From a virus, in the IMG/VR virus record IMGVR_UViG_3300027861_000145, positions 1-29,744 of that record: 29,744 nucleotides of DNA. One strand, 5' to 3'. The position numbers and the translations under genes are program-made. Shown here piece by piece: positions 1-28,854 of the stretch (within the stretch, counting starts at the first letter, position 1; each line of letters starts with the position of its first letter). A model generated the notes under the pieces. The model saw only the letters and a list, made by a program, of their open reading frames with translations, did not search any database and was not told where the DNA came from.

Positions 1-3000
1 GGGAATGACTTCTTTAGTCTCTCTAAGAATATCTCCCAAGTGCTTGCTTGTAAATCAGATATTTCATATGCCGTAGATGATGTAGACTGTGCAGATGTAC
101 CTGTAGCAGATACTGCATCAGCTTTACTAAAGTTAACCATCTTAGCTAATGGTGTCTCAGCTTCTTTCAAAAGATTTTTTATCTTATCATTGCTATTTAA
201 TTGCAGTGCCTCTTCTAATAGTGGCTTAATTATCTTCTTATCTCTTACCTTTAGTTTAGTAAATGCCTCAGATGCTAATACCTCTGCAATAATCTCTAGC
301 TTATCTGCCTTGCTAACATTATCATTTTTTGCTTTCTTTATTTTTTCAAATACTTCCGTCTCAGCTTCATTAGCTTTATATTTTACCTTGCCTGACTTCT
401 TTTTTTCTATACCTACAGCCCTCTTTTCCAACTGATTAAAGTAGTATTCTGATACCCTATAGAAAGGGGCAGTCTCTTCCATCATAGCGACAGCTCTACC
501 TCTTATGTATATGGGGTAGTTTGGATGTATCTGCATACCTTCAGCTTTTGCCTCTTCTCTTGAAATCTTTGCTGATGCTACAATATTATTTATCTCCTTT
601 GTGTATTCTTTTTCAGTTATCTCATTATTTTTAAGACGCTCATCAAGCTGTCTCTTTAAATCGCTTACCTTTACACCATCCTTGTTTGTAATCTCAAGCA
701 CCATAGTCAGTGCCCCTGCCTTTAGGTTCTTAGTAAACCCTTCAGATGTCTCATCAATAAGTACGTCTTGTGCTATGCCAAGAGATTGCAACTTTTTTAG
801 TAGCTCAACCTTATCAGTGTTTATATCTAATGTTTGAGGTAATATAAGCCCCATTACTTCTGCTCTTGTATCTACACTTTCATTTTTTTGTAATGCCTTA
901 AAGAACTCCATTGCATCGGTAGCACTATCTAAATGTTTCTTCGCCTTCTTTACATTTTTTAACTTTGATTCTTTAACTCTCTCTTTGATAAGATTAAATA
1001 TATTCTCCTTTTGCTCCTCAGGAATCTTTTCATTGAGAATCTCTGCCATAATAATATTAGACATTATACCACCTTCTCCCATATTATATACAGTAGAATA
1101 GTTTGCATCCATAGCACCCAATATTATTTTTGATGCTGCCGCATCTGTTATAGATGCCCACGCAACCTTACCAAATAGCCCTTCCATTAATGGAAAGAAG
1201 TTACCACCCATCTTTACGTATGGATTGGTTTCTATATTGTGAGGTTTTGTTGGGTCCTTTAATTCTACCTTTAGCTTGTCAGCCATTAATAGGTTTATCT
1301 TCTTCCCTATTAAATCTTTTAGTTTAAACCTTTTTATCTTATTTGCAAGAGAGATGTTTTCTTTTACTGTTATAGGTATTGGCTTTACTGTTGGCTCTTC
1401 TAATACTATTGTCTCTTCTGAGGCTTCTTGCTCATCTAATTTTTTAAATAGTTTCTTTACCTCTTTCGTCTTCTTGTCTATTACCTCATCTTGTGTCTTG
1501 CCTTCATCTAATTTGAATTGTACATCATCACTATCTAACATACTCTCTAAGTCCAACACGTCCTGCTTTAACACTTCAATCTCTGCTAGTCGTGTCTTGT
1601 TTTTATCTGCTACTCGTTGTTGGAATTTTGTTAGCTTCTTGCCTGCAATATTTTTATCAGCTATGCCGGATAAGATACCATCAAGTCTTGATGCTTCAAT
1701 AGTATTATTATCAAATGCCTTGACATCATCTTTATTAGGTCTAGCAATAGCATCAGGCATAGGTGATACATCTTCAATTTGTACTTCTTCGTATGTTGAT
1801 ATATCATTTAATAAAACAATCTCTCCTGTAGTACCATCTTCGTTTTTAGTAACGATAGCATCAAAGCCTTTTTCTTTTAATGCATTAGTTAGTTCAATAC
1901 CTGTCTTCCCATTATTTTCTTCCGATAGTTTTCTTTTATATTCTATCTGTGTATCAGTAGTCACATCAATGACTAATGGGTTGTTAATCTGTACAGTACC
2001 TGTTTCAAATCCTTCAGGTGTAAAGTCAGCTTCTTTTTGAGTTATATATGTTCCTGCTGCTTCTACATCTTGACCAAACTGAGCACCCATATCAGGTGCA
2101 GGTTTAGGATTTCTGTTGTAATTAATTGTTATAGGTTCATTTGTTGCTAACACATCTTCTCTTACCTCAGTATCTACCTCAGTATCTACACTTATATCTG
2201 TTTGTATTGGTGTAGGCTTAACTAATACAGGAAGGTCTATAGAAATAGTATATTCAACTCCTCTTTTTTTAGCTGTTTCTCCGGGGAGTGTGGGTGGAGG
2301 AGGTGGTCCTTTTTTTTCTATTATATTTGCTATTATACCCGGATATGCTTCTTCTATTTTAGCAAGCTCTGATTCTGCAGAATATTTATCAGTAGTTTTG
2401 AAAGGGTTATAAGCAGCATCCCCTGCTTTTTTCACAGACTGCTTTGTTGCGTCACTATATTTTGTAGGTCTTGTTACTACATTTCCATCAGAATCTACCT
2501 TTTCTATTAGCCTTGACTTCTTATAAGTTCGTAAACCGCCTTCAGATATTGTTGTAGTTTCAACAACCTCTGCATTAGCAGGCAATGTATTCTCTGCAGA
2601 TGTAATCATACCCTTAAATAAGCCACTTTCAGTTGATTCGAACTTACCCGTAAACATATTTGTTGGCTTACCGTTTTCATAAACTCTTGTATAACCTACA
2701 AAATTATTATCATTTTTTCCGCTAATTATAACATCTACACTTCCCGTCTCAGGATTTACATACTGAGCAGTAACAACTCCCTTTTCATCAGGTTTTGTAA
2801 TGTCGTATATTTTAGCCCTTCCCTTTCCATCATTACCTTTGTTATAAGGTAGTTCTTTAGATGAATGCTCTTCTCCAAATTGTTTTTTAACACTATTGCT
2901 TCTTTCGGATAGATTTTTTTGTCTATCTTCAGCTACCTTATCTGTAGCTACCTCAGTATCTACCTCAGTATCTACCTCAGTGTCTACACTTATATCTGTT

Positions 3001-6000
3001 TGTATTGGTAATGTGAAATTAGCAGCATCGTATTCCTTCAGTGCTTTTGTAGCCGCCTCAAGCCTTGGTCGTGTCTCCTTCATATTCTGAGGAGTCATAT
3101 TATCCTTAGCCGCCTCAAGCTCAGCAACAAGAGCATCTCTTTCCACTGTAGTACCTGTCCCCTCTATCACATCGTATTTCGCACGCTCCGTCAGCTTGCC
3201 GTCTACTAAGCGTCTTGGTTTTATTACCCTTTCTACAATCATAACGCCCTTGGGAACTTGGTCGCTTTCTTCCCTTCTTCCTATATCTACAAGCTCACTA
3301 TCTGATACTTCTCTACCAATCTCATTATCAAACACATACCCCTCAGCTTCAAGCTCTGCCTTAGCATTGTCATACCAAGCCTTATCCTCTTGACTTACAT
3401 TAGCCTTAGACGTTGTTGCATTATTAAGGAATCGAGTAACTGCAACTACCTTTCCTTTTATATCTGTAGCAGAAGCAAAGTCATTTATAGCTATATTAAT
3501 TCTTTTCTTTAATCCAATCTTATCCTTATCTGTAGCTACCTCAGTATCTACCTCAGGAGAGGTGTCAGTATCTGTAGTAGTTGAAGTCTCATTGGCAACC
3601 GCCCTATCAAATAAAGTTGGTTCTACTGAAGACTCTGTATCAGCAGTAGTCTTAGTAACTGTTGGAGCAGCGTCTTTTAATGATGTAGTGATTTTATTTT
3701 CTATTATACTCTGTGTCTCAGTGTCGTTGTTGACAACAAAATTAGTTTTAAATAGTTGCTTAGGTGTAAGTTTTTCTATCTTAGAAATAAATTTATCTTT
3801 AGATAGCACCTTGCCATCAATAGAATAGTATGGTGATACATCTGTCATTACCAATTTACCTGACAAATCAATTAGACCATCAATATTAACCTGAGACCCC
3901 TTATCACTTAATTGTCCTGTCTCTACTATCTGTGCTATCTCACTATTTATATTTTTTATCTTATCACTAAATAGCTCTCTACTATTAGTAGTAGATGATA
4001 GTTGTTCTTTAGCATATAACAATTGCGAAAGCCTGCCTGTAATATTAGAATTATCAGATTTTTGATTCCCAACACTTAATAGATTCTTTGCCTCTCTTAA
4101 TACACCTAAATTCTTCTGTATCTTTTGATTCTGCTCAGATGTAATCTGTCCTAGCGTCTGCATCTTAGTTGCCCAATTGGTTATCCGCTCTTCACTATAA
4201 TTCATTTTAGCAAGCTCAGATATATTTGTCATCTTCTTTGCAATATTAAGATTAGTAGAACTCCTTTGGTCCATATACATATTAACAGCACCCATACTCA
4301 TAGTCATTGGATTTACGACACCTCCAAAAAATCCACCGACCATCTCATCTATAATAGCATTTTGGTCAGTTTTCTGACCTGCAACTTTCTGTGCTAAATA
4401 CTCGCCACTACCTTCAAAAAAAGGGTTGACAGTAGTCTGTTCTGCAGCTAGTGCCGCAAGCTTTGTACTTCTTGATGCAAGTGGTCCTGTTTTAAATATT
4501 CGACCTGCTAGACTCATCTGCAGATATGACATCCCTGCTATCGTAAAACCTCTCTTTAATCCTATATCAAATGCTTCTGCCCATACATCATCATTTCGTA
4601 ATGCCTGCTCCGCTTGAAATGGGTCTGTCATATCATACCCCCTCTTGCTTGCTCCTTCCAAGAATGAATTTGTGTACTCAAGTGCTACAATTGTAGCAGC
4701 GTATCCAAGTTTTAGTCCTTCTTGCCCCCCCTTTATTGCACCGGGTATTGCACCTACACCAAGTGTAGTTGCACCTCCAATAAGTGCTCCTGTACCTGTA
4801 CCTGCTGCCGTTGCCAAAGGTACAATATAAAATCCATATGGAAGAAGTTGAGTTAAGCTCTCTGCAGCCATTGATGCCCCAACCTCCAAGGGATTGTCAT
4901 AGAATGCATCAAGTTTCTCTTCAAATGAGCGTGCTCCTTTGTGATACCTATATATCCCACGCCCCTGCTTACCTGTATCTGCCTCCTTCATATACTTAGC
5001 TATAGCAGCAGCAGCCTCCTCTCTTGTAGAATCTTCATCTATATCTTTTATACCTAATGATACAGCAAGGATGACGGCTCCTGCATTGCCACGTGCCATA
5101 CCCCTTTTATATGAATTTGTAACAGATTCTACGTCCTCTACCCACTCATCTCTTACCGACTTATCGACCTTTGCATCTAGCCACGTCTTAGATATATTAT
5201 ACCTATCTGCAGCCTGCTGCTTTTGTTTTTCTAAAAGTTTATATTTAACATTAAACTCGTCAAGCCCTTCTGCTTCTCGTGGGGATTGAGGCACAATAGA
5301 TTGTAATTCTCCTGCTGTTAAACCATAGAACTTCATAGCTACCTCATCCATAGCATCCAATTCTTCTTTTATAACTAGGTTCTCTTCTACTGCAAGTGCT
5401 CCATTTACCTCCCACGAATCCTGTAGGTATTTATCAAAGTCTTCTCTTACCCTTTGAAACTCATCTTGATTTACTGACTCTCTTAGTATAGCAGCCTCAT
5501 CTTTTAACTCTTTTAATGCCTCCTCACTATCTGCTCTCTTCTTTCCATTAATGTATAAGAATCCCATCTCATCTTTCTTCTCCTGTTGTTCTTCAAAACT
5601 CAACCCTTCTGTGCTGTAGTCTTGTTGAAATTCATATGTCGGTGAGTTTTCAATAGCAATGATTGTAGACATTAAATCTTCATATCTATTATACATATCC
5701 TTGTATGCATTATAGTCCAATCCCCTGTCCTTATAGAACATATTAGCCTCAACGTCTACGGCAGATACATCCTTCCAAGACCCCTCAGCTAATTCATCTG
5801 CTTTCTCTTTGGAGTCTACATATAGTACCTCTCCTCTTTTTTTAGCTTCAGCAAATGCCTCATCTGCATCTAACATCATCCATTCAGATGGGTCGGTACC
5901 ATAATCTGAATCAGGATTTTGAGGGAATAGTGTAGGGTATACAACATTTTTACCATCTACCTCTGCAGATACAAGATTGATGTTTTCTAAATTTCCATCA

Positions 6001-7013
6001 TCAGATACCATATAGTTCTTACGCATCCTACCTATCTTGATAGCATTAGAAATATCATCAGTAATCTCAGGAGGAGAATCTACAGGTGTAGCGTTTGTTG
6101 TAATAAAAGACTTTAGTTTATTTACCGCATCACGAGTTATAATCTTTTTAGTTGTACCTGCCGCTAAAGGTTTTAGGTCTATCACCTCTGTAGCACCGTT
6201 ATCTGTAGATATAACCTCTATAGAATTACGTGTTAGTGATGATACATCTTCAGGTATAATATTATTACCTAGACCAATCTTTCTAAACACAAAGCCATAC
6301 TTCCCATACTTATCTGTTAGGAAGTCTACTGCCTCATCTTCATTGTAATCTATAACCTCATCTGTAATATTTGCAAGGTCAGCTTGAAATTCTTCAGATA
6401 ATATTATATCCTCATTTTGTTTAAATTTAGATAGAGCCTCTTCGTCTGATACCTTATCTTCTTCTAAGGTTTTCTGTATAAGTGCTCCCTCTTCTTTTGA
6501 TGTTACACCTTCGGGTCTAACTATATTAGCAGTACCGGGAACATCTATAAATTCATCTTGAAGGTACTCTTGTGATACCTCACCACGATTCCCATAGTAC
6601 TCTACACTCTCTTGTGCAGGCGGGGCAGGCGGGGCAGGTGGTCCCGTAGGACTAGGTTTAATTCTAGAGTCAGCTTCGGGGGCTACTATGTTAGCAGCAC
6701 TCGCTACATCTACAAATTCCGAAGAACCATCCTCCAAAGGCGATGCCATATCGTCTTTTTTTTTTGGCGGTGTAGGTGGAGATGGAGGCGAAGGATTTGC
6801 CTCTTGAGACGAAGTATCTGCAGTTGGTGTTACACCCATCAAAACAGCAAAGTCATCAGAGGTTCCATTATATCCTGCTTCTTTAAAAACATTGAATCCG
6901 TCATTTAAAGCATCAGGATTTGTTTCTAATAAAACTTTAAACTGTTCTTCTGAACCGTTATATCCTACATCAATAAATATGTTATATAAATCTTTAACTG
7001 CCTGCTCGTTCAT
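1..7013 (-). CDS. Giant modular polyvalent-type phage protein, probably virion-carried (partial, C-terminus off left edge)
   Basis: The frame opens at ATG 7013, 10 bases after the preceding stop, and stays open to the left edge: 2337 residues, C-terminus missing. Visible in order: two 30-residue repeats (9-59); Pro-rich linkers (about 72-86 and 122-135); a module (about 333-441) with YPTLF, EGSWKDV and FYKDRGLDY; a Gly/Ala-rich hydrophobic stretch (about 718-780); Asp-Thr-Glu-Val linkers near 1155, 1345 and 1609; a possible GrpE-like module (about 1212-1288); an ADP-ribosyltransferase-like module (about 1642-1738) with INNPLVID, GFDAIVT and TGEIVLL; coiled coil; then a helical module (about 1900-2000) with GGNFFPLM and VAWASI. 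The size, modularity and place after two internal-protein-like genes suggest a T7 gp16-like ejected protein carrying effector modules (inference). I see no RNA polymerase DxDxD motif or protease motif. The open frame is certain; the domain names are tentative. Confidence 0.85.
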   Translation of the reverse strand, partial: MNEQAVKDLYNIFIDVGYNGSEEQFKVLLETNPDALNDGFNVFKEAGYNGTSDDFAVLMGVTPTADTSSQEANPSPPSPPTPPKKKDDMASPLEDGSSEFVDVASAANIVAPEADSRIKPSPTGPPAPPAPPAQESVEYYGNRGEVSQEYLQDEFIDVPGTANIVRPEGVTSKEEGALIQKTLEEDKVSDEEALSKFKQNEDIILSEEFQADLANITDEVIDYNEDEAVDFLTDKYGKYGFVFRKIGLGNNIIPEDVSSLTRNSIEVISTDNGATEVIDLKPLAAGTTKKIITRDAVNKLKSFITTNATPVDSPPEITDDISNAIKIGRMRKNYMVSDDGNLENINLVSAEVDGKNVVYPTLFPQNPDSDYGTDPSEWMMLDADEAFAEAKKRGEVLYVDSKEKADELAEGSWKDVSAVDVEANMFYKDRGLDYNAYKDMYNRYEDLMSTIIAIENSPTYEFQQDYSTEGLSFEEQQEKKDEMGFLYINGKKRADSEEALKELKDEAAILRESVNQDEFQRVREDFDKYLQDSWEVNGALAVEENLVIKEELDAMDEVAMKFYGLTAGELQSIVPQSPREAEGLDEFNVKYKLLEKQKQQAADRYNISKTWLDAKVDKSVRDEWVEDVESVTNSYKRGMARGNAGAVILAVSLGIKDIDEDSTREEAAAAIAKYMKEADTGKQGRGIYRYHKGARSFEEKLDAFYDNPLEVGASMAAESLTQLLPYGFYIVPLATAAGTGTGALIGGATTLGVGAIPGAIKGGQEGLKLGYAATIVALEYTNSFLEGASKRGYDMTDPFQAEQALRNDDVWAEAFDIGLKRGFTIAGMSYLQMSLAGRIFKTGPLASRSTKLAALAAEQTTVNPFFEGSGEYLAQKVAGQKTDQNAIIDEMVGGFFGGVVNPMTMSMGAVNMYMDQRSSTNLNIAKKMTNISELAKMNYSEERITNWATKMQTLGQITSEQNQKIQKNLGVLREAKNLLSVGNQKSDNSNITGRLSQLLYAKEQLSSTTNSRELFSDKIKNINSEIAQIVETGQLSDKGSQVNIDGLIDLSGKLVMTDVSPYYSIDGKVLSKDKFISKIEKLTPKQLFKTNFVVNNDTETQSIIENKITTSLKDAAPTVTKTTADTESSVEPTLFDRAVANETSTTTDTDTSPEVDTEVATDKDKIGLKKRINIAINDFASATDIKGKVVAVTRFLNNATTSKANVSQEDKAWYDNAKAELEAEGYVFDNEIGREVSDSELVDIGRREESDQVPKGVMIVERVIKPRRLVDGKLTERAKYDVIEGTGTTVERDALVAELEAAKDNMTPQNMKETRPRLEAATKALKEYDAANFTLPIQTDISVDTEVDTEVDTEVATDKVAEDRQKNLSERSNSVKKQFGEEHSSKELPYNKGNDGKGRAKIYDITKPDEKGVVTAQYVNPETGSVDVIISGKNDNNFVGYTRVYENGKPTNMFTGKFESTESGLFKGMITSAENTLPANAEVVETTTISEGGLRTYKKSRLIEKVDSDGNVVTRPTKYSDATKQSVKKAGDAAYNPFKTTDKYSAESELAKIEEAYPGIIANIIEKKGPPPPPTLPGETAKKRGVEYTISIDLPVLVKPTPIQTDISVDTEVDTEVREDVLATNEPITINYNRNPKPAPDMGAQFGQDVEAAGTYITQKEADFTPEGFETGTVQINNPLVIDVTTDTQIEYKRKLSEENNGKTGIELTNALKEKGFDAIVTKNEDGTTGEIVLLNDISTYEEVQIEDVSPMPDAIARPNKDDVKAFDNNTIEASRLDGILSGIADKNIAGKKLTKFQQRVADKNKTRLAEIEVLKQDVLDLESMLDSDDVQFKLDEGKTQDEVIDKKTKEVKKLFKKLDEQEASEETIVLEEPTVKPIPITVKENISLANKIKRFKLKDLIGKKINLLMADKLKVELKDPTKPHNIETNPYVKMGGNFFPLMEGLFGKVAWASITDAAASKIILGAMDANYSTVYNMGEGGIMSNIIMAEILNEKIPEEQKENIFNLIKERVKESKLKNVKKAKKHLDSATDAMEFFKALQKNESVDTRAEVMGLILPQTLDINTDKVELLKKLQSLGIAQDVLIDETSEGFTKNLKAGALTMVLEITNKDGVKVSDLKRQLDERLKNNEITEKEYTKEINNIVASAKISREEAKAEGMQIHPNYPIYIRGRAVAMMEETAPFYRVSEYYFNQLEKRAVGIEKKKSGKVKYKANEAETEVFEKIKKAKNDNVSKADKLEIIAEVLASEAFTKLKVRDKKIIKPLLEEALQLNSNDKIKNLLKEAETPLAKMVNFSKADAVSATGTSAQSTSSTAYEISDLQASTWEIFLERLKKSF
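1800..2090 (-). other. ADP-ribosyltransferase-like module (polyvalent-protein type) within the giant gene
   Basis: This segment encodes about residues 1642-1738 of the giant protein. It shows FGQD, then AGTYITQ, then TVQINNPLVID, then GFDAIVT, then TGEIVLLND. This order (a Tyr strand, a NPL strand, a G-[YF]-D-[AG]-I turn and an acidic E-[IY]-V strand) is the layout I know from ADP-ribosyltransferase domains in phage polyvalent proteins. A Tyr (about 1655) and a Glu (about 1731) sit where the H-Y-E family places its second and third catalytic residues. The usual His strand is not obvious; the matching region reads ITINYNRNP. The fold call is moderate and activity is uncertain. Confidence 0.5.
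2164..2211. repeat. Direct repeat copy A (Asp-Thr-Glu-Val linker)
   Basis: This 48-base stretch matches 2962-3009 at 47 of 48 positions by eye. On the minus strand it encodes IQTDISVDTEVDTEV. It is built on a 12-base unit, acctcagtatct on the plus strand. It lies just before the ADP-ribosyltransferase-like module of the giant gene. Confidence 0.9.
2936..3009. repeat. Direct repeat copy B (Asp-Thr-Glu-Val linker, longest copy)
   Basis: The right part (2962-3009) repeats copy A with one mismatch, and the left part (2936-2968) repeats copy C exactly over 33 bases. It encodes three Asp-Thr-Glu-Val units followed by ATDK. The 12-base unit occurs in tandem here, so the copy number may vary between related phages. 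Confidence 0.9.
3150..3382 (-). other. Possible GrpE-like (nucleotide exchange factor) module within the giant gene
   Basis: This segment encodes about residues 1212-1288. It reads as a helix with AKAELEAEGYVFDNEIGRE, followed by acidic residues, KGVMIVERVIKPRRL, then DGKLTERAKYDVIEG. A short helix, a G-Y-x-[FI]-[DI] turn, a G-x-x-I-x-x-V-[IL]-[KR]-P strand and a closing A-x-[YV]-x-V strand are what I recall from the C-terminal beta domain of GrpE-type proteins annotated in Bacteroidetes and their phages. The long dimerising coiled coil of cellular GrpE is not evident directly before it. The assignment is weak. Confidence 0.3.
3524..3556. repeat. Direct repeat copy C (Asp-Thr-Glu-Val linker)
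   Basis: These 33 bases are identical to 2936-2968. They encode PEVDTEVATDKD, at the entry to the possible GrpE-like module. With copies A and B they mark both ends of two successive modules in the giant gene. Confidence 0.9.
6756..6765 (-). other. A10 homopolymer inside the giant gene
   Basis: The coding strand has ten consecutive A, read in frame as Lys-Lys-Lys (with the last base of a Pro codon) after a Pro-rich linker. One extra A would give about 20 new residues ending RCSECC and then a stop. One fewer A would also reach a stop quickly. Either slip yields a roughly 105-110-residue product holding only the N-terminal repeats. Confidence 0.6.
6837..6989 (-). repeat. Two tandem 30-residue repeats at the N-terminus of the giant protein
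   Basis: Residues 9-29 and 39-59 align with a period of 30 residues. Both contain F-x3-GYNG and end in a short acidic stretch followed by F-x-V-L. The two units are separated by a short polar link. Repeats of this kind at the start of virion proteins often serve as docking modules; that role here is inference. Confidence 0.75.
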
Positions 7014-19811: not shown

Positions 19812-21254
19812 TTAGTCTTCGAACAGTACGAAGTTATTTGCACCTAATGTACAAACACATCTTTCAGACAAGAAGTGTACTTCCATCGCATCTAAAGACG
19901 ATGTAGCTGCACCACCTGCAGAACCTGTAATCCAAGTCTTATATCTTCTGTCCTCAGTTTCAGAAGCTCTGTAACGAACGTGTAAGAACGGACGTTTAGC
20001 ATTCTTTCCAAGAACTTGGTCATACACAGATGTTGAACCTGCAGGTACCAATAACCCGTTGATATTACCTGTACCTGCGGCTAAACCTCCACGCATAGTT
20101 GGGTCATTCAGATATTTCCAATCAGTCTTGTAGAAGTCATATCCTCTTCGGAATCCTGTGAATCCTAAGTTCAATGCCATCTCTTGGTCATTGTCAAACA
20201 ATCCGAAAGAAGTACCACCTGCACCATAAGAATTTTGCTCAGATAACATATCGTCAATTGAAAATCCAAAGTCTCTATCTAAGAATATTACGTTCTCTTC
20301 AATTGCTCCTTGTGCATCAAGTCGTCCGATGATAGCATCGAAGTCAGCTAATACATTAGGAACGCCACCTGTCCATAGGTTACCTCGTTGTCCTACAGTA
20401 AAGAACACACCTTCAGAACCTTTAGCAGTTCCGGCATTGGCAACATTGTCCATAGGTACTGCTTCAATCATTGCAGTCTCAAGATAGTCGTCAAAACGTA
20501 ATCTTGTTTCGTGCTCAGACTTCATATACCAAAGGTATCCACTTGCACCGTTCTCTGTTGTTACTTCAACCCATCCAATCTGAGCCATATCAGAACCTGA
20601 TACTGCGTACTTATCTTTAATGATAATTGGAGAGTTCTCGAAAATGAAATCGTCAGACTCTAAAGAACCATTCATTCCTTCAGTTCCTTTTGCAAACTCA
20701 GAACCGTAGATGAAGATAGTAACGTCTGCGTTTCCAACTCCTGAACCTGCTGCTACAAGTCCACCTGCTTCGTAAAAAGCAACTGTAGCTGTAATAGGAG
20801 ATACTGTTAAATCAACATCAGTAACAATACCTTTGTTTTCACCTGCACCATTGTTTTGGTGAACAACAACAGTCTGTCCTACTCTCAATGCGATACCGCC
20901 TTGAGCACTAAAAGGATTCTGTCCTGTAGTAGCTTGACCTGCAGGTGCTGATGCATCATTGATTTGGAATACTGCTTGGTCAGCATTCACTAATGCGGCT
21001 GTACCCACGCTTGTATATTTAACGTGAAGTCTTCCTTGCTCTGCCCATTTTACAAGGTCTGAGTTAGAAGGCATCTCTGCTCCAACCATTCTTAAAAATG
21101 AACTAATCGTTCTGTTTCCGTAACGTTCAAATTCCTTTTCATAAGTATCCGGAAGATACTGATTCAAGAAATCAAAGTTAGTAATGTAATTTGTCGCCAA
21201 CGGCACTTGCTGTGCTGATGGCTGTAGGTCGAAACCCGGTCCTGTTAATGGCAT
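19812..21254 (-). CDS. Major capsid protein, 480 aa (crAss-like/HK97-fold type)
   Basis: Residues 26-80 carry the block NFDFLNQYLPDTYEKEFERY, then GNRTISSFLRMVGAEMPSNS, then KWAEQGRLHVKYTS. I know it as the start of capsid proteins in crAss-like and related Bacteroidetes phages. An insertion-like beta region (about 85-190, rich in Gly, Ala and Thr) and a helical-beta core with NFVLFED at the end follow. Length (480) fits that family. The gene lies after portal and scaffold and is followed by a terminator, the usual place for the capsid gene. The leader has an A/T-rich TTAAAAATTAAAAATT just before ATG. There is no protease gene nearby, so whether the N-terminus is cleaved is unknown. Confidence 0.88.
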   Translation of the reverse strand: MPLTGPGFDLQPSAQQVPLATNYITNFDFLNQYLPDTYEKEFERYGNRTISSFLRMVGAEMPSNSDLVKWAEQGRLHVKYTSVGTAALVNADQAVFQINDASAPAGQATTGQNPFSAQGGIALRVGQTVVVHQNNGAGENKGIVTDVDLTVSPITATVAFYEAGGLVAAGSGVGNADVTIFIYGSEFAKGTEGMNGSLESDDFIFENSPIIIKDKYAVSGSDMAQIGWVEVTTENGASGYLWYMKSEHETRLRFDDYLETAMIEAVPMDNVANAGTAKGSEGVFFTVGQRGNLWTGGVPNVLADFDAIIGRLDAQGAIEENVIFLDRDFGFSIDDMLSEQNSYGAGGTSFGLFDNDQEMALNLGFTGFRRGYDFYKTDWKYLNDPTMRGGLAAGTGNINGLLVPAGSTSVYDQVLGKNAKRPFLHVRYRASETEDRRYKTWITGSAGGAATSSLDAMEVHFLSERCVCTLGANNFVLFED

Positions 21255-22443: not shown

Positions 22444-24879
22444 TTATCTTGGAGAGAACTCAGCTAAGTCAAATCCATCTAAGCTATCCTCGTTAGACTC
22501 AAATCTTTGTGGAGGTAGATTGTTCTTACGTTGATTGATTAACTGTGACTGCTGCGTGTTCTGCTGATTTATCCTTGAAGATTTTGCATCCTCTCGTTGA
22601 GTCTCTCGTGATTGTAAAGCATTCTCAGACATATCTCGAAGCTGCTGATTGTAGTTAAACTCCTCCTGCATCAACATAGACTTTAACTTAGCCTCGTTGT
22701 TCATCTTCTCAATCTCAAACGCAATCTTAGCCTGCTCAAGCTGCATCTTGCCTCTCATCTCCATCTCTATCTTCTGTGCAGCAATCTGTGCTGCCATCTG
22801 TTGAGACTGCATATTTATCTGACCTGTCATAGCCTGCTTCTGCATCTCCATCTGTTCTTCTCTATCCTGTTTCTGCTTACGCTTTAACTTAAGAAGTTGA
22901 TTAGCAAGTTTGATATTCTTAATCTCCCTGATGTCTATGGCATCCTCAAGATTAATATCCCCCTTTGAAAGAGCCATCTGAATGTTCTGCTCAAGTTTAG
23001 CTTTATCCTCCTCGTCAGGTGCTATCTCTATAAATATACCAAAGTCATAAATATACAAGTCACTTATATCATTAAGTATTGACACGTTATACTTGCCTAT
23101 CTTGTTTGCAAAGTCATCTTTAAAGTCAGCGTACTCTAATATGTCAGCAACACGATACGTTAATGCCTCAGCTAAACTTCTATATATGTAAAGACTTCCA
23201 TCAAGTATATGACGGGTGGCTACATTAGAGTTTAATGCAGCAAGTTTTTGTAAGCCAACCAACGAGTTAGGGTCAGGATTACTTCCGTCTCGTGCCTCGT
23301 TTAATCCTGTTACGGTTCTAATCATACCTAAGTAATGATTGTAGTTTCCTATAAGCATCTGTGTCTTAGACGCTCCTGAATTAGATGTAAGCTGTTGTAT
23401 AGGAACCTTAGCCTGATTGTAGTCACCATCCTGAGTGTATGACCTTCCTATCACACTACCCGTTTGGAAGTATAACCTTAATGCATCCTCAGGGTTATAT
23501 GCGTTGCCTGTACCGAGGTCAACCTCGTTCAGTCCATCTGCATCTATATATACACCATCAGGTACTACCCTTGCAATAACCTGTTGTAGCTTTAGGTGTG
23601 TCATCTGTATTAAATCAGCAAAGGGTACCATCCGTCTTACTAAAGACTCTAACCTACCCTTGTACATCCTTGGGGCAACTGCCACATAGTTTGGAAGTGC
23701 GTGCTGACTTGATGACTTAGGTCTTACCATATTCTTAGCAAGCTCCCACTTCAATACAATGTTGGTTCCCATAACCATAACCCCATCATACCACACATCA
23801 ATTGTTTTCTCAAACTTCTCAAAGTTCCCTTCCTCCATTACATCTTCAGGTGGGTCAAATTGGTCATCCTTCTCAATTACTTTATTACCGCCTGTTGCCG
23901 TAATCTTTTTCTTATAGACCATCTTCTCTGTGGTCTTATAGTTAAAGTATAATAGTGTTACAGTATCCCTAAAGAAAATATCATTCTCATAGAACTGTGC
24001 TACATTATAGTAGTCATACCACGATTGACTGTACTTACTTATCTCCTCTAAATCTTCTGTTGTCAATGAAGGGTCTATCTTCATCAGCTCTGTGATAGGA
24101 AGTGTCTTAACCTCTCCCCAATAGAAACAATCTTTAAAGTGTGGGTCTTCTGTATAGCTGTATACAATATTAGCCGGGTCAACATATGATACTGATACCC
24201 CTGCCCCCTTTAAAAACTCGTGCTTAGCTACACCAATACCTACGGTTGCTATATCATAGTCAACTCTTTTACGTATATCAAGGTAGTGATTCTCTTCGAA
24301 TATTGTATTGATAGCCTCCTCTTCAGCTATCTCTATAGCAGGTTTGTAGTTAAGCTGCATATATAAAGCCATCTCCGTATCATCTTGAGGTAGTGCATCC
24401 TCAGGCATTATAAACGGGTCGTATCCTGACTTCTCTTTTATAATAGAGAGTTGGTCTTTTGCAGCCATCTGCCCCTCTATCATATCCTGATACTTAGTTC
24501 TCTTAGCTTGAGACATTGCATCTTGAGCGTATGCCTTAACCTTAAACAGTCTATCAGACATTCCGTTCACAACTATGTCAACAAACTTAGGGATGATAGG
24601 TACAGGTGTCCAATCTAAGTTAAGATACGATAGGTCGCCATCAATAGCTAACTCGTTCTTATACTTGCTTATAGACTGCTCACCTCTTGCGTATAATCTC
24701 AATCTGTGAAACTCTCTCCATTGGTCATAAAACCTACAACCATTCCCATCCTTACGGAACCATTCATACTGAATGGCTTGCCCTATCATCAACCCGTATT
24801 CATCTGTTGCTTTCTCAGCATCAGAAACAAACTGACTTGGAAACCCTGCAGATGAAATATTAATTTTTACATCCTTCAT
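22444..24879 (-). CDS. Portal protein, 811 aa (crAss-like type)
   Basis: It forms the ring at the capsid vertex through which DNA enters and leaves. Family-type blocks are YARGEQSISKYKNEL (about 68-82), DGDLSYLNLDWTPVPIIPKF and VDIVVNGMSDRLFKV (to about 120), then RKRVDYDIATVGIGVAKHEF, and a stem or crown region with GNYNHYLGMIRTVTGLNEAR. The last 170 residues are Gln/Met/Lys-rich coiled coil (for example QAMTGQINMQSQQMAAQIAA), a C-terminal barrel-like extension seen in long portals. At 811 residues it fits crAss-like portals, which are longer than most. Its ATG overlaps the terminase stop (ATGA), so translation is coupled. Confidence 0.9.
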   Translation of the reverse strand: MKDVKINISSAGFPSQFVSDAEKATDEYGLMIGQAIQYEWFRKDGNGCRFYDQWREFHRLRLYARGEQSISKYKNELAIDGDLSYLNLDWTPVPIIPKFVDIVVNGMSDRLFKVKAYAQDAMSQAKRTKYQDMIEGQMAAKDQLSIIKEKSGYDPFIMPEDALPQDDTEMALYMQLNYKPAIEIAEEEAINTIFEENHYLDIRKRVDYDIATVGIGVAKHEFLKGAGVSVSYVDPANIVYSYTEDPHFKDCFYWGEVKTLPITELMKIDPSLTTEDLEEISKYSQSWYDYYNVAQFYENDIFFRDTVTLLYFNYKTTEKMVYKKKITATGGNKVIEKDDQFDPPEDVMEEGNFEKFEKTIDVWYDGVMVMGTNIVLKWELAKNMVRPKSSSQHALPNYVAVAPRMYKGRLESLVRRMVPFADLIQMTHLKLQQVIARVVPDGVYIDADGLNEVDLGTGNAYNPEDALRLYFQTGSVIGRSYTQDGDYNQAKVPIQQLTSNSGASKTQMLIGNYNHYLGMIRTVTGLNEARDGSNPDPNSLVGLQKLAALNSNVATRHILDGSLYIYRSLAEALTYRVADILEYADFKDDFANKIGKYNVSILNDISDLYIYDFGIFIEIAPDEEDKAKLEQNIQMALSKGDINLEDAIDIREIKNIKLANQLLKLKRKQKQDREEQMEMQKQAMTGQINMQSQQMAAQIAAQKIEMEMRGKMQLEQAKIAFEIEKMNNEAKLKSMLMQEEFNYNQQLRDMSENALQSRETQREDAKSSRINQQNTQQSQLINQRKNNLPPQRFESNEDSLDGFDLAEFSPR

Positions 24880-27104
24880 CTAATTATTTGACTTGTTTTT
24901 CCTGTATTAGTATACCTTGCAAAGTTAACTTTTATTTTTGATTCTTTTCTTTCAGGTTGATATAGATGTTTTTGACACGCCATAATAGCCAAACCCGTAC
25001 TAATAGATGCATCAAACTTAGTCCTGTTCGTAATATCAAACTTTGCCCAATCCTCTAACGTCCTATTGAATGCCATCGAACTCATATCCCCATCATCTTT
25101 TAATCCTACGTGATTTTCTATGTAGGACTCAATTGCTGCAGCGTGTGCCTGCTTAACAGCCTCACTTGAGTTAGGTATGCCACCCAACTCTTTTTCTGTC
25201 TTAGATAGCTTCGTAAACACCTTGTCGGGTCTGTTAGTGCAGAACCCCCTGTAGCCTCTATTCTTAAAATGATATAGTAACCTTGGCTTATTGTTCTCTA
25301 TTAGTATGGGCATACCATAGAACACGCACGCCATTAGCACATCCTCAAAGAATATCTCGGCTGTCTGTGGTCGTGCAATATACTCCAAGAAGAACTCGTT
25401 GCTTGGAGCCTCCTCCATACTAAACTTTGTTAGTCCGTGTAGAGAACCGTTTGAACCAACACCTCCTACTGTCCCACTAATATCATATGAGTCACATCCA
25501 AAGCTCCCTATGTGTTCATTACCCGGATACATAACCCCATTCTTTTTTACTATCCTGTTCTGTAGGTTTTTATTTGGTACCCACGTAATAAAAAATCTAC
25601 CTCGCTTGTCAGGATTAAACATAACCACACTATCCTTGATACCGTTCTTCCAACTGAAAGCCCCACGTGTAACATACTGCTCTGTTATCATACTATCGTT
25701 GTAGTCTATCTGCTGATATATCTTTGTCAAGTTAAACAGTGACTGCTTGCTCTCGTCCCTAAATGCGTGTGACTCTGTACGTGGAAACTGCCTGTAGTAC
25801 TCGTTTAGTGCATCAGGGTCATTCTTTAATGACTCCACCTCGTTGTCCCAATACTCTACAGCTCCTTGTGTAATCCACTCATTGTCAATACCCCTAACCT
25901 TACCGTCTACATTTTTTAGCACAGGCATACCATACCTGTCAATAAACCCTTCCATATTCCATTCCATAGGAATAAACAAGGAGTACATACCACTCTTGGT
26001 CTGACCGTTAGCATTTCTTTTAGTTACATCAGAATCGTAGTACAGCCTCTTAAAGTTTTCTCCACCTTTGCTTAATGCATTTGATGTTGAGCCCATCATA
26101 CACTTACCTATAATCCTGCTACCTAATCTTAGACACGTCTTTGTAACACGCCAATTGTTTAGGATGTTGTTTGGCTTTAACCACTTCCCACTCTCATCGT
26201 GTACTAACAATAGAAGCTTCTCACCATCATAGCTGTTGTCGTCCGTGTTCTTCCAATCTATAGTAGTATCCAACCCCTCCATCTCATTAGCATCGACATC
26301 ATACATATTCTTCTTAGTAATCTTAGCCGCAGGGACACGGTATGCTAACTCCGTCTTTGGTTTATCCATACCATCCATAATAGGCTTGAAGAAAAATGGC
26401 AGCCTGCTATTTATAGGTACGACCTTGTCGGTGAACATCTTCTTAGCATCGCTACCCGTCTTGGATAGTATACCAACCCTTGCATCTTTTACAAGCGTAC
26501 CTGTATTGACACACTCTGACGATGACATAAACGAGAACCCTGAACGCCTAATCTTTAGGTATATCATTCCAAAGCTTCTCTTGTCTGCCTTACAAGCCTC
26601 CCAATATATATACAGTAACCTATTAGCCTCTCTGAAGTCAGGGTATCCAACATCTATTGTGGTCCATTGCAGATACATATAGTGTGCCCCGGTTATATAC
26701 GTGGGTATACCATTACTCATAAACCAAAAACCTACCTCTCTATTATCGAACTCTGCTTCAATATAGTCCACCCATCTTGCCTTGAAATCTGAAGGCATCT
26801 CATTCCATTGAAAGATGGATGGTATTTTAGATAAAGGTTTTGGTATATCGTAACGCTCCCAATACTGCTCTTTCTTATCGTTATGTCTTTGGTATATTTC
26901 TTTTGGGGGTTTGGGTAGTGCTATCTTTAGTCCTGATATTTCAACTATATCTCCTATCTCTCCGGTCTTTGATATTACTACAACGTCATACTTCTCGTTA
27001 TGACCATACAGCCAAGACCTGTTACGGTTCTTGTTAGTATACACGCTCTTAGGTATGTAGTCGTGTATTACTCGGTATATATTATTTAGACCTTCTTTCT
27101 GCAA
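24876..27104 (-). CDS. terL: Terminase large subunit (packaging ATPase-nuclease), 742 aa, non-ATG start
   Basis: It pumps DNA into the prohead and cuts concatemers. The ATPase domain shows YITGAHYMYLQW (136-147), a degenerate Walker A, KIRRSGFS (184-191), with Phe where Lys is usual, a Walker B LLLLVHDE (297-304) and a coupling motif CMMGSTSN. The RNase-H-like nuclease has GCDSYD (about 536-541), an acidic IEN near 605 and a C-terminal KFDASISTGLA region. No in-frame ATG occurs before residue 103, and a stop lies just upstream, so the start must be TTG 27104 (used here), another non-ATG codon, or GTG 27044. It overlaps the upstream small gene by 23 bases and the portal gene by 4. Length and motifs fit crAss-like terminases. 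Confidence 0.92.
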   Translation of the reverse strand: MQKEGLNNIYRVIHDYIPKSVYTNKNRNRSWLYGHNEKYDVVVISKTGEIGDIVEISGLKIALPKPPKEIYQRHNDKKEQYWERYDIPKPLSKIPSIFQWNEMPSDFKARWVDYIEAEFDNREVGFWFMSNGIPTYITGAHYMYLQWTTIDVGYPDFREANRLLYIYWEACKADKRSFGMIYLKIRRSGFSFMSSSECVNTGTLVKDARVGILSKTGSDAKKMFTDKVVPINSRLPFFFKPIMDGMDKPKTELAYRVPAAKITKKNMYDVDANEMEGLDTTIDWKNTDDNSYDGEKLLLLVHDESGKWLKPNNILNNWRVTKTCLRLGSRIIGKCMMGSTSNALSKGGENFKRLYYDSDVTKRNANGQTKSGMYSLFIPMEWNMEGFIDRYGMPVLKNVDGKVRGIDNEWITQGAVEYWDNEVESLKNDPDALNEYYRQFPRTESHAFRDESKQSLFNLTKIYQQIDYNDSMITEQYVTRGAFSWKNGIKDSVVMFNPDKRGRFFITWVPNKNLQNRIVKKNGVMYPGNEHIGSFGCDSYDISGTVGGVGSNGSLHGLTKFSMEEAPSNEFFLEYIARPQTAEIFFEDVLMACVFYGMPILIENNKPRLLYHFKNRGYRGFCTNRPDKVFTKLSKTEKELGGIPNSSEAVKQAHAAAIESYIENHVGLKDDGDMSSMAFNRTLEDWAKFDITNRTKFDASISTGLAIMACQKHLYQPERKESKIKVNFARYTNTGKTSQIIR

Positions 27105-27360
27105 ACCCTTGTTTTGTATCTAACTTATTAGGAACACCGCTGCTCTCTATAGCCTCACGCTCCTCTTCAATCCTTTTTAATATCTCAAAGGCATCGAATA
27201 TTGCTAACTTCTTTGTAGCGGCAGCATTCTTTAATCTGTCTGCCGATATGTCATCCTCAGGGTCGTGCTTTATAATCTGCTCCTTGGCAACCTTTATAAG
27301 CTGCTCTACTGCCCTGTGCCCTGCTTCAATTATTTTTAGCTTAACTTGCTTTGTGTCCAT
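27082..27360 (-). CDS. Probable terminase small subunit, 92 aa
   Basis: The protein is helical and charged: VKLKIIEAGHRAVEQLIKVA, then DISADRLKNAAATKKLAIFD and AFEILKRIEEEREAIESS, and a basic end (GFAERRSK). No helix-turn-helix motif stands out. It lies directly upstream of the large terminase with a 23-base overlap, where the small subunit, which recognises the phage DNA, is usually found. The pattern SADRLKNAAATKKLAIFDAF is one I know from small proteins in the same place in marine Bacteroidetes phages. The small-subunit role is inferred from place and size. The gene starts 1 base after the 31-aa peptide gene ends. Confidence 0.55.
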   Translation of the reverse strand: MDTKQVKLKIIEAGHRAVEQLIKVAKEQIIKHDPEDDISADRLKNAAATKKLAIFDAFEILKRIEEEREAIESSGVPNKLDTKQGFAERRSK

Positions 27361-27456
27361 CTATCTTATAATATTAATTATAAACAATAGTAGTATAACA
27401 TCTAAAATAATCTTTGCTATAAGGAGGACTGCTAATGATTTGAAAAAATTTCTCAT
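27361..27456 (-). CDS. 31-aa single-span membrane peptide
   Basis: The 31-residue frame starts MRNFFKSLAVLLIAKI and continues hydrophobic through DVILLLFIINII to a final Arg. The ATG at 27456 overlaps the stop of the GroES-like gene (ATGA), and the TAG at 27361-27363 directly abuts the ATG of the next gene. This exact fit between two genes, with coupled start and almost no spare base, argues for a real gene. A basic N-terminus and one membrane helix suggest an inner-membrane peptide. It could be an accessory lysis peptide or a superinfection factor; neither is shown. Confidence 0.6.
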   Translation of the reverse strand: MRNFFKSLAVLLIAKIILDVILLLFIINIIR

Positions 27457-28016
27457 AGTTGTAAAGTTATTGAGTGGTCATACATTCTCCATAGCACCTC
27501 ATCGTCTACCTTAAACTCATACTCCTGTGACGGCTTGTAGCATACTACATCCCCTTCCTTTAGACCTTGAGATTTAAGTTCCTCGTTAATTATAGCAATG
27601 GTTCCAATTAAAGGTTCATTGGTTGTAGCCTTATATATATAGCTTTCTTTTGCGGGGATGGGTTTTATAAAACAGTAGCGGTCGTACCCTTGCCACTCGC
27701 CATTTTTTTTATATGCAAAGAATTGGTCGGGGTCTAAAAAGAATATGTTCTCTTTAAAAAAACTTTTCCCACTCTGTCTTCTGCCCCGCATATCATTGTA
27801 GAACTTAAATACATTGTGGTGAACCAATAAGACATCACCCTTTTCAATTGGACCGTCATAGTTTAGTGGTGTTTCTATCACTATAGCCTCTCTATTGGAG
27901 GCTGACACATCCTCTTCTGATGTGCTAACTATAAACTCTATTCCTGCTATTGTCTTGGTGTTGTTATATCTTTTCTTATTTACGGGTTCTACTATAAACT
28001 GATATATTGATTTCAT
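27453..28016 (-). CDS. Tandem GroES-like (co-chaperonin) protein, 187 aa
   Basis: Two similar halves can be seen. Half one (about 5-102): FIVEPV, then REAIVIETPLNYDGPIEKGD, then VLLVHHNVF and ENIFFLDPDQFFAY. Half two (about 113-187): CFIKPI, then IGTIAIINEEL, then GLKEGDVVCYKPSQEYEFKV and DEVLWRMYDHSITLQL. Each follows the GroES order: an R/K-P strand at the start, a G-x-V strand, K-x-GD before a hydrophobic strand (GD at 60-61 and 155-156), and a closing D/E-x-x-[IL] strand. A GroES-like helper could let the host GroEL fold the large capsid protein, as T4 gp31 does. That use is inference. Start and stop overlap both neighbours (TAATG and ATGA). A beta-barrel of another kind is possible. Confidence 0.55.
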   Translation of the reverse strand: MKSIYQFIVEPVNKKRYNNTKTIAGIEFIVSTSEEDVSASNREAIVIETPLNYDGPIEKGDVLLVHHNVFKFYNDMRGRRQSGKSFFKENIFFLDPDQFFAYKKNGEWQGYDRYCFIKPIPAKESYIYKATTNEPLIGTIAIINEELKSQGLKEGDVVCYKPSQEYEFKVDDEVLWRMYDHSITLQL

Positions 28017-28243
28017 TAAAAATTTATATTAAATTCAATTGACACAGGCACTGTAGATGTAAACTCCTTCCACAGTATAACCTCTTGACTTGTGCTCTCT
28101 ATCCATATCTTTATAGAGTCGCTCTCATCGTAATATTTTATTAGATGAATAGTGTGACTACCGTTTAGTATCTCTTGACCTACTATGTAGTGCATAGCCC
28201 CTGACTTGTAATCAGGTCCCACACTTATCTTACGAATATCCAT
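28016..28243 (-). CDS. Small conserved phage protein of unknown function, 75 aa
   Basis: The sequence runs SGAMHYIVGQEILNG, HTIHLIKYYD, SDSIKIWIES, VILWKEF and ends SIEFNINF. Short alternating strands suggest a small beta barrel or sandwich. I recall similar small proteins in marine Bacteroidetes phages but no function. Both junctions are TAATG overlaps, with the 203-aa gene before it and the GroES-like gene after it, so the three are tightly coupled. No membrane segment, Cys pair or charged cluster offers a role. Confidence 0.7.
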   Translation of the reverse strand: MDIRKISVGPDYKSGAMHYIVGQEILNGSHTIHLIKYYDESDSIKIWIESTSQEVILWKEFTSTVPVSIEFNINF

Positions 28244-28854
28244 TATTGTTTTACCATTAATACTCCGGCACCGTTTGCATTAGCTGCTGTTGTTTGATAC
28301 ACATCTCCTTGTATTAGTCCTGCTAATCCTGCTGCTGCATCATCGTCATATGCAGTTATGGCAGTCATTCTTAAAGGAATAGCTGAGGCTATATCTATTA
28401 ATACATCTACAAAAAGTTTATTACTTACAACCATATCCCCGGTTATATTAATATCTCCCGTTAAATTTACATCTCCCGTTAAATTTACATCGTTTGTTGC
28501 TGTGTTTCCTGCTGCTAATACACTTTCTAAATCTAAATTTATATCTACCCACTCTAAAGCGTTAGATAAAGATTTAACAAGAGCCTGCCCGGCTGTACCT
28601 GTATTACCACCTCCGTCTTGTATGTCGGTAGGTATGATAGAAGTACAGGTAATATCACCTGTTAATGTTATATCGTTTGTTGCAGTATTACCTGCTGCTA
28701 ATACCTCAGATAATGTGTTATCAGGGATTAAACCAATGATGTCTCCTATTGTGAAGGTTTTTGTTTCGAGGCTTGATGCTACTGTTCCAATAACATAATC
28801 TCCAATTACGGGAGTAGCGTTAGGATATGCTGCAGTGTTACTTATCTTTGACAT
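28243..28854 (-). CDS. Repeat-containing appendage/fibre-type protein, 203 aa
   Basis: The motif SE/ESVLAAGNTATND is followed by LTGD runs twice: residues 49-67 and 110-140, the second with three LTGD/ITGD units in a row. Between them is GNTGTAGQALVKSLSNALEW, a G-x-x-G-Q-x-L-x-S repeat of the type seen in phage fibres and collagen-like appendages. The end (GLIQGDVYQTTAANANGAGV) resembles the C-terminal tip of phage structural proteins. There is no membrane segment. I infer a surface or fibre protein of the virion. It is unusual for such a gene to lie before the terminase, amid lysis genes; position and repeats are seen, the role is inferred. Confidence 0.6.
   Translation of the reverse strand: MSKISNTAAYPNATPVIGDYVIGTVASSLETKTFTIGDIIGLIPDNTLSEVLAAGNTATNDITLTGDITCTSIIPTDIQDGGGNTGTAGQALVKSLSNALEWVDINLDLESVLAAGNTATNDVNLTGDVNLTGDINITGDMVVSNKLFVDVLIDIASAIPLRMTAITAYDDDAAAGLAGLIQGDVYQTTAANANGAGVLMVKQ

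Follow-up and report, generated by a model that had tools for sequence, protein, structure and literature searches.

A gene at positions 27453..28016 (minus strand) of the virus record IMGVR_UViG_3300027861_000145 starts with ATG and encodes a 187-aa protein that we identify, from its match to phrog_13932, an AlphaFold2 model and the resemblance of that model to chloroplast Cpn20, as a tandem GroES-like co-chaperonin. The stretch of DNA analysed, hereafter the window, is this whole record of 29,744 bases, which may be a fragment. The gene is already known and annotated: most of the phage records listed call it 'chaperonin cpn10' or 'co-chaperonin GroES' and a few 'hypothetical protein'; the two GroES-like domains are unmentioned in the annotations examined, and we found no paper on a tandem architecture in phage co-chaperonins among the papers listed by searches of the open-access literature. 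What is new is that the protein has two domains and one full loop and that it occurs in addition to a GroEL/GroES pair. The predicted structure of both halves together with the homologues upholds the proposal of an initial annotation, made from the letters of the sequence, that two GroES-like domains are joined in one small protein. By model and analogy, this protein would probably act as a subunit of a single-tier lid, mixed or not, on GroEL.

The profile phrog_13932 ('co-chaperonin GroES') matches the 187-aa protein with an E-value of 1.5e-23, residues 1-178 aligning with positions 1-190 of 200, and it also matches 93/93 members of A6, a diverse alignment of 93 family sequences in which the others share 26-94% identity with the window protein. 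Two further profiles recognise the C half only, i.e. phrog_3188 (co-chaperonin GroES, 96 positions) and Pfam Cpn10, the latter with 15.4 bits against a cut-off of 21.1. Among the relatives, 46/93 match Pfam Cpn10 at E-values up to 0.1 (best 8.5e-8), and the cut-off is exceeded by the tandem proteins of phi18:3 (33.3 bits) and Calle_1/phi38:1 (24.1 bits). Searching the PDB by phmmer with the single window sequence gave nothing at E-values up to 10; with the family profile, Cpn10 and Cpn20 chains were retrieved by the C half (positions 107-187) and one unrelated acyltransferase by positions 61-96.

A pattern scan of IMG/VR returned at least 600 stretches with relatives, 600/600 of which were confirmed by tblastn. 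Moreover, 85 phage records matched (68 Flavobacterium, 15 Cellulophaga, 1 Maribacter and 1 uncultured), many of which are near-identical isolates. When IMG/VR was searched with the Panino protein alone, the 13 pattern matches included no relative. All relatives found are in phage or viral contigs except for four contigs in bacterial MAGs; these four tandem relatives (L232-L235) lie on contigs binned in Cytophagales, Winogradskyella and Aliivibrio MAGs, which probably belong to phages; for Aliivibrio, the assignment to the bin is doubtful. Open reading frames of tandem length, 180-208 aa, occur at 189 loci, a number that includes duplicates of the same phages and leaves out L081, which is a piece of the window itself. 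These frames rule out a sequencing or fusion artefact, and the structure of each half together with the 93 aligned sequences speaks against a chance repeat.

The AlphaFold2 model of the whole protein, computed with the 93 sequences of A6, has a mean pLDDT of 85.5 and a pTM of 0.75. Its top solved match is chain R of 7ekq, the Chlamydomonas Cpn20 (Foldseek E-value 1.1e-4, TM 0.57, rmsd 6.9), and VIA-align superimposes the model on the same chain with a Z of 9.9 and an rmsd of 4.5 over 160 residues spanning 1-187. By contrast, one-domain GroES chains reach a TM of at most 0.35 to the whole model among the Foldseek matches listed. Thus, the two domains are predicted to be placed roughly as in Cpn20, and the rmsd values of 4.5 (VIA-align) and 6.9 (Foldseek) suggest that the angle between them differs from that in Cpn20. 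A BFVD model of the phi18:3 homologue resembles the window model with a TM of 0.78. BFVD also contains a viral protein of 304 residues, A0A516L046, with a TM of 0.76 to the tandem model; it is perhaps a tandem with a third domain.

The C-terminal GroES-like domain comprises residues 109-187 (27456..27692, minus strand), with a shortened loop at residues 121-137, and aligns with GroES chains in VIA-align with a Z of up to 9.5 over 78 residues. The N-terminal GroES-like domain, residues 1-108 (27693..28016, minus strand), was predicted alone with a pLDDT of 88.0 and a pTM of 0.75. The best Foldseek match of this model is a GroES at an E-value of 3.0e-3, with none at 0.001 or less; in VIA-align, rows 1-16 are all GroES, gp31 or Cpn20 chains, i.e. 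of Cpn10 type, with Z from 7.6 to 5.0, and row 17 is a glucose dehydrogenase with a Z of 4.9. A VIA-align Z below 8 can reflect merely a common arrangement and all values for the N half are in this range; therefore, we put the weight on the ranking and on the coverage of residues 1-104. We considered that the halves could be GroES-like domains of the dehydrogenase type; however, oxidoreductase chains rank under Cpn10 chains for both halves, with Z of 5.2 or less for the whole model and 4.9 or less for the N half alone, and the 187-aa protein has no room for the further (Rossmann) domain of medium-chain dehydrogenases. In total, structure prediction of each half, which the initial annotation had suggested as a check, gives a GroES beta-barrel for both of them.

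In sequence, the two halves are hardly alike. Profiles were compared in two runs, the second of which added shuffled controls at a slightly different setting. In the first run, the N half had no match to the C half or to E. coli GroES (probability at most 0.1%), and the probabilities were 4.5% for the N half with the one-domain GroES of these phages, 2.2% for the C half with E. coli GroES and 91.5% for the C half with the phage one-domain GroES. In the controlled comparisons, the score of the N half against the C half was reached by 2/200 column-shuffled controls. The N half scored 21.2 against the phage one-domain GroES, which 0/200 controls reached, narrowly (maximum 20.75; reversed control 17.2), and the C half scored 41.2, the best of 200 controls reaching 17.2 in one run and 16.9 in another. 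Judged by sequence, the C half appears to be a clear relative of the phage one-domain GroES; for the N half this link is weak, and its predicted structure, with Z below 8, points to a GroES relative. Because the likeness of the halves is slight and Pfam recognises the C half only, the evidence for two domains is mainly the predicted structure and the homologues. The initial annotation named the two domains correctly; the case for them is not founded on the repeated order of motifs that it listed.

The N domain contains a mobile-loop-like segment at residues 12-42 (27891..27983, minus strand). The stretch from P11 to R42 is 28-32 residues long in 93/93 aligned sequences; the corresponding stretch of the C half, I120 to G138, has 15-21 residues in 92/93 and 26 in the phi18:3-type member, and the equivalent stretches in E. 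coli GroES have, by our own placement, about 24-25 residues. The N stretch is modelled as a hairpin with strands 20-23 and 26-29 and a hydrophobic patch at 28-30, and within the chain pLDDT is lowest in the blocks 21-30 (70) and 31-40 (66), which agrees with a mobile loop. At position 28, 93/93 sequences have L, F or I, and residues 29 and 30 are hydrophobic in 91/93 and 60/93, respectively. A looser test for a hydrophobic triplet is passed by 93/93 N loops and also by 63/93 C loops and is non-discriminating. In the one-domain GroES of these phages, the loop motif G[LIVM]x[LIVMF] is present in 29/29 examined. The initial annotation expected a mobile loop with a GroEL-contact-like patch in at least one half; on sequence and model, the N half is predicted to have such a loop with hydrophobic contact-like residues, and the short, variable stretch of the C half lacks it. 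The C-half loop has remained longer and GroES-like in the tandem protein of phi18:3, gp096 (L107:16459-17058), which is possibly an earlier stage of the tandem.

The most conserved stretch of the family is the GD....HHNxF segment at residues 60-70 (27807..27839, minus strand), which has a mean column conservation of 0.84 compared with 0.45-0.72 in ten other segments. These include the C-half segment 155-168 (0.72), the strands 1-11 and 112-120 (0.70 each), the middling N loop (0.59) and the C loop, which is the least conserved of the eleven segments (0.45). H66, H67, N68 and F70 are each present in 99-100% of the A6 rows. By our own placement, GD....HHNxF is set at the place of GDIVIFNDGY in GroES, which we take to be chamber-facing. 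By analogy, this suggests that the inner lining of the chamber may have been selected for a particular client.

Separate components of a chaperonin usually accompany the tandem gene. We considered 34 tandem-bearing records, which were chosen for length from the loci in hand, and are thus non-random, and which are kin to one another and do not represent independent events. GroEL is present in 28/34 of these records and a separate small GroES above the Pfam cut-off, in open frames of 84-131 aa, in 30/34. For the 24 records with a length of 48 kb or more, the figures are 22 with GroEL and 24 with the small GroES; phi18:3, represented in two collections, accounts for both records in which GroEL was not found, and it keeps the two co-chaperonins, the second, small GroES included. 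Altogether, GroEL was not found in 6/34 records, four of which, IMG/VR contigs of 33-46 kb, are possibly incomplete. A MAG and nine viral records, 16.5-32.9 kb in length, were examined in addition; five of these ten have GroEL and in five none was found, and one of the five GroEL is that of the MAG and may be a host gene. GroEL had no match within the 29.7-kb fragment that forms the window; the contig of L001, the tandem protein of which shares 94% identity with the window protein, carries GroEL. These partners in the relatives lie outside the window and were beyond the reach of the initial annotation. In an alignment of 35 GroEL rows, one of them from E. coli, D52, D87 and D398 are kept in 35/35; at the contact positions, F204 is F in 33/35, L, I or V occupies position 237 in 35/35, and other positions vary. 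Based on these counts, we conclude that, as a rule, the phage also has a GroEL/GroES pair, to which the tandem protein adds a second co-chaperonin.

As the initial annotation had noted, the gene lies just before the genes for terminase, portal and head. The terminase large subunit (TerL; 24876..27104, minus strand) matches phrog_6681 with an E-value of 1.8e-174, the portal protein (22444..24879, minus strand) matches phrog_6547 with 1.4e-138, and a virion structural protein (19812..21254, minus strand) matches phrog_13704 with 7.3e-103. The last is the probable major capsid protein, and the Calle_1 gene in the same order is annotated as structural protein/major capsid protein. In 177/177 loci with enough downstream sequence, loci of one phage being counted separately, TerL starts on the same strand no more than 1.5 kb downstream. 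Between the co-chaperonin gene and TerL of the window lies a 92-aa ORF (27082..27360, minus strand), which has a weak profile match (probability 11.8%) to the N-terminal extension of the longer TerL of relatives. Given its position and this match, it is possible that the ORF is a small-terminase piece that has been split or fused. TerL has 876-879 aa in Panino, elemo and Calle compared with 742 in the window, and the match of the 92-aa ORF to the extension ends in a common Gly-Phe...Glu-Arg stretch.

Directly upstream, a 75-aa gene (28016..28243, minus strand) overlaps the ATG of the co-chaperonin gene with its TAA by one base. A homologue occupies the same place in 165/173 testable loci, a count obtained with queries other than the phi18:3 upstream gene, which seems to be unrelated to the rest; the loci without it are six of phi18:3 type, L020 and L115. 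The 75-aa gene had no match in PHROG or NCBIfam and no Pfam match near the cut-off, and its product is likely a functional partner of the co-chaperonin. Farther upstream, past two further ORFs, a holin-like gene and an amidase are situated at the window end. A 203-aa protein at 28243-28854 contains short repeats of the type LTGDVNLTGDINITGDM and scores just over the cut-off for the Pfam CRAM repeat (21.5 versus 19.8 bits). At the window end, an open-ended ORF (3-7013) of 2337 aa or more is placed like the very long late gene gp101 of phi38:1, a likeness of position alone.

We propose that Bacteroidota phages encode a two-domain co-chaperonin of the Cpn10 superfamily that probably serves as a lid subunit in a single-tier ring on GroEL. 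As to ring make-up, GroEL contact and substrate, we infer the following. The N domain would dock on GroEL, most likely the phage's own, by its predicted mobile loop, and the C domain, in which the loop is nearly lost, would be a roof or spacer element side by side with the N domain in one ring. Seven domains might be reached with the separate one-domain GroES, e.g. by three tandem proteins and one single. Plastid Cpn20/Cpn10 provide the precedent that best explains why a second, tandem co-chaperonin should exist in addition to a GroEL/GroES pair; nevertheless, we hold such a mixed ring with the separate GroES to be a tentative idea, with the chances against it. A 3+1 ring has four mobile loops for seven GroEL subunits, which may be too few. 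Late clients, e.g. capsid, portal or terminase, might be helped to fold, as the gene position suggests; this would agree with the role in folding head proteins put forward in the initial annotation. The boldest version of the proposal, which we advance with similar reserve, is a three-part Bacteroidota phage chaperonin consisting of GroEL, one-domain GroES and tandem GroES, in which a loop-asymmetric seven-domain hetero-lid with an HHN-lined dome would be fitted to a head protein and would have arisen independently of chloroplast Cpn10/Cpn20.

The main rival is, like the mixed ring, a lid on GroEL. It is a two-tier homo-heptamer in which seven loop-bearing N domains face GroEL and seven loopless C domains form a raised dome, so that large phage proteins would have a taller chamber, after the manner of T4 gp31. 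A single full loop in each protomer, i.e. an N stretch of 28-32 residues in 93/93 and a C stretch of 15-21 in 92/93, would suit the seven GroEL subunits, and HHNxF of the N half belongs to the most conserved stretch; however, the whole-chain match to Cpn20 (TM 0.57; Z 9.9 over 1-187) suggests neighbours in one ring and not stacked tiers, and the C-half loop of 26 residues in phi18:3 suggests that the ancestor may have had two working loops. We regard two tiers as unlikely.

Somewhat more unlikely still is that the GroES-fold protein no longer serves GroEL, which would be served by the one-domain GroES alone, and that it acts directly in head assembly or packaging, e.g. with terminase or the 75-aa protein. 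The fixed place of the gene between the 75-aa gene (165/173) and TerL (177/177), its distance of several kb from groEL in the two records examined for distance, the existence of a GroEL and GroES pair besides the tandem protein and the conserved HHN, absent from E. coli GroES, would all fit such a role. By contrast, the length of the N loop and the hydrophobic residue 28 are kept in 93/93, which is unexpected if the contact to GroEL was lost. Moreover, gp096 of phi18:3 is without an MS/MS note and several virion proteins have one, a weak argument as absence proves little. As no aligned relative has lost the N loop, we consider the GroEL-free role less likely than the lid on GroEL. Finally, the best structural match, 7ekq, is a complex in which algal Cpn11/Cpn20/Cpn23 are reported to cap ClpP (PMC8889267), and the seven-fold ring might likewise cap another heptamer such as ClpP; however, tandem-bearing records have their own GroEL (28/34) and small GroES (30/34), and we consider this reading very improbable.

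To our knowledge, tandem, even-numbered lids on a seven-fold chaperonin have been studied mainly in plastid-type Cpn20 and in engineered concatemers. Here, a phage version that is widespread and usually accompanied by a GroEL and a GroES of the phage itself is available in cultured phages (Cellulophaga Calle/phi38:1 and Flavobacterium elemo) and makes both the assembly of mixed lids and the adaptation of the chamber to one client testable. The theme known from gp31 would widen from replacing a lid to diversifying it. Should the tandem protein turn out to be an ordinary co-chaperonin, the practical gain is that a late gene common in these phages can be annotated better.

The Cpn20 type has a mobile loop in both domains; the window protein, by contrast, has a reduced C-half loop, as have 92/93 rows of the alignment. 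It differs from Cpn20 (12-15% identity) also in that it is phage-encoded, in that its halves are very dissimilar and in the conserved HHN of the N half. In common with chloroplast Cpn20/Cpn21 (7ekq chains Q and R), it has two GroES-like domains head to tail, and the lengths are similar, 194 versus 187 aa. Judged on sequence features, it may work like Cpn20, yet we do not class it as a Cpn20. The initial annotation regarded a double-domain lid as an odd partner for seven-fold GroEL; this view finds no support in chloroplast Cpn20, which is built likewise, has a one-domain partner in the same genome, and is reported to form functional rings of seven GroES-like domains together with one-domain Cpn10 and also to be able to work alone (PMC5780408).

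Among the phages themselves, a report of 2017 described GroEL in the phi38:1 group (PMC5332604) and one of 2024 homologues of GroEL and GroES in Maribacter phage Panino (PMC11590407); for the proposed family Pervagoviridae, 'chaperonin cpn10' was given among the core proteins in 2021 (PMC8776804), and we infer that this is the tandem gene. The one-domain GroES of the same phages is a separate gene near groEL, of which the C half of the tandem is a clear profile relative; unlike the tandem protein, it is without an extended hairpin after the GD motif. E. coli GroES has NDG where the tandem family has the conserved HHN. Finally, T4 gp31 (1g31_A), to which the N half aligns with a Z of 6.5, is like the tandem protein a phage-encoded GroES fold with a presumed role in folding head proteins; however, gp31 has one domain and is reported to take over from GroES on the host GroEL (PMC6318259), whereas the tandem protein usually accompanies a phage GroEL and a phage GroES.
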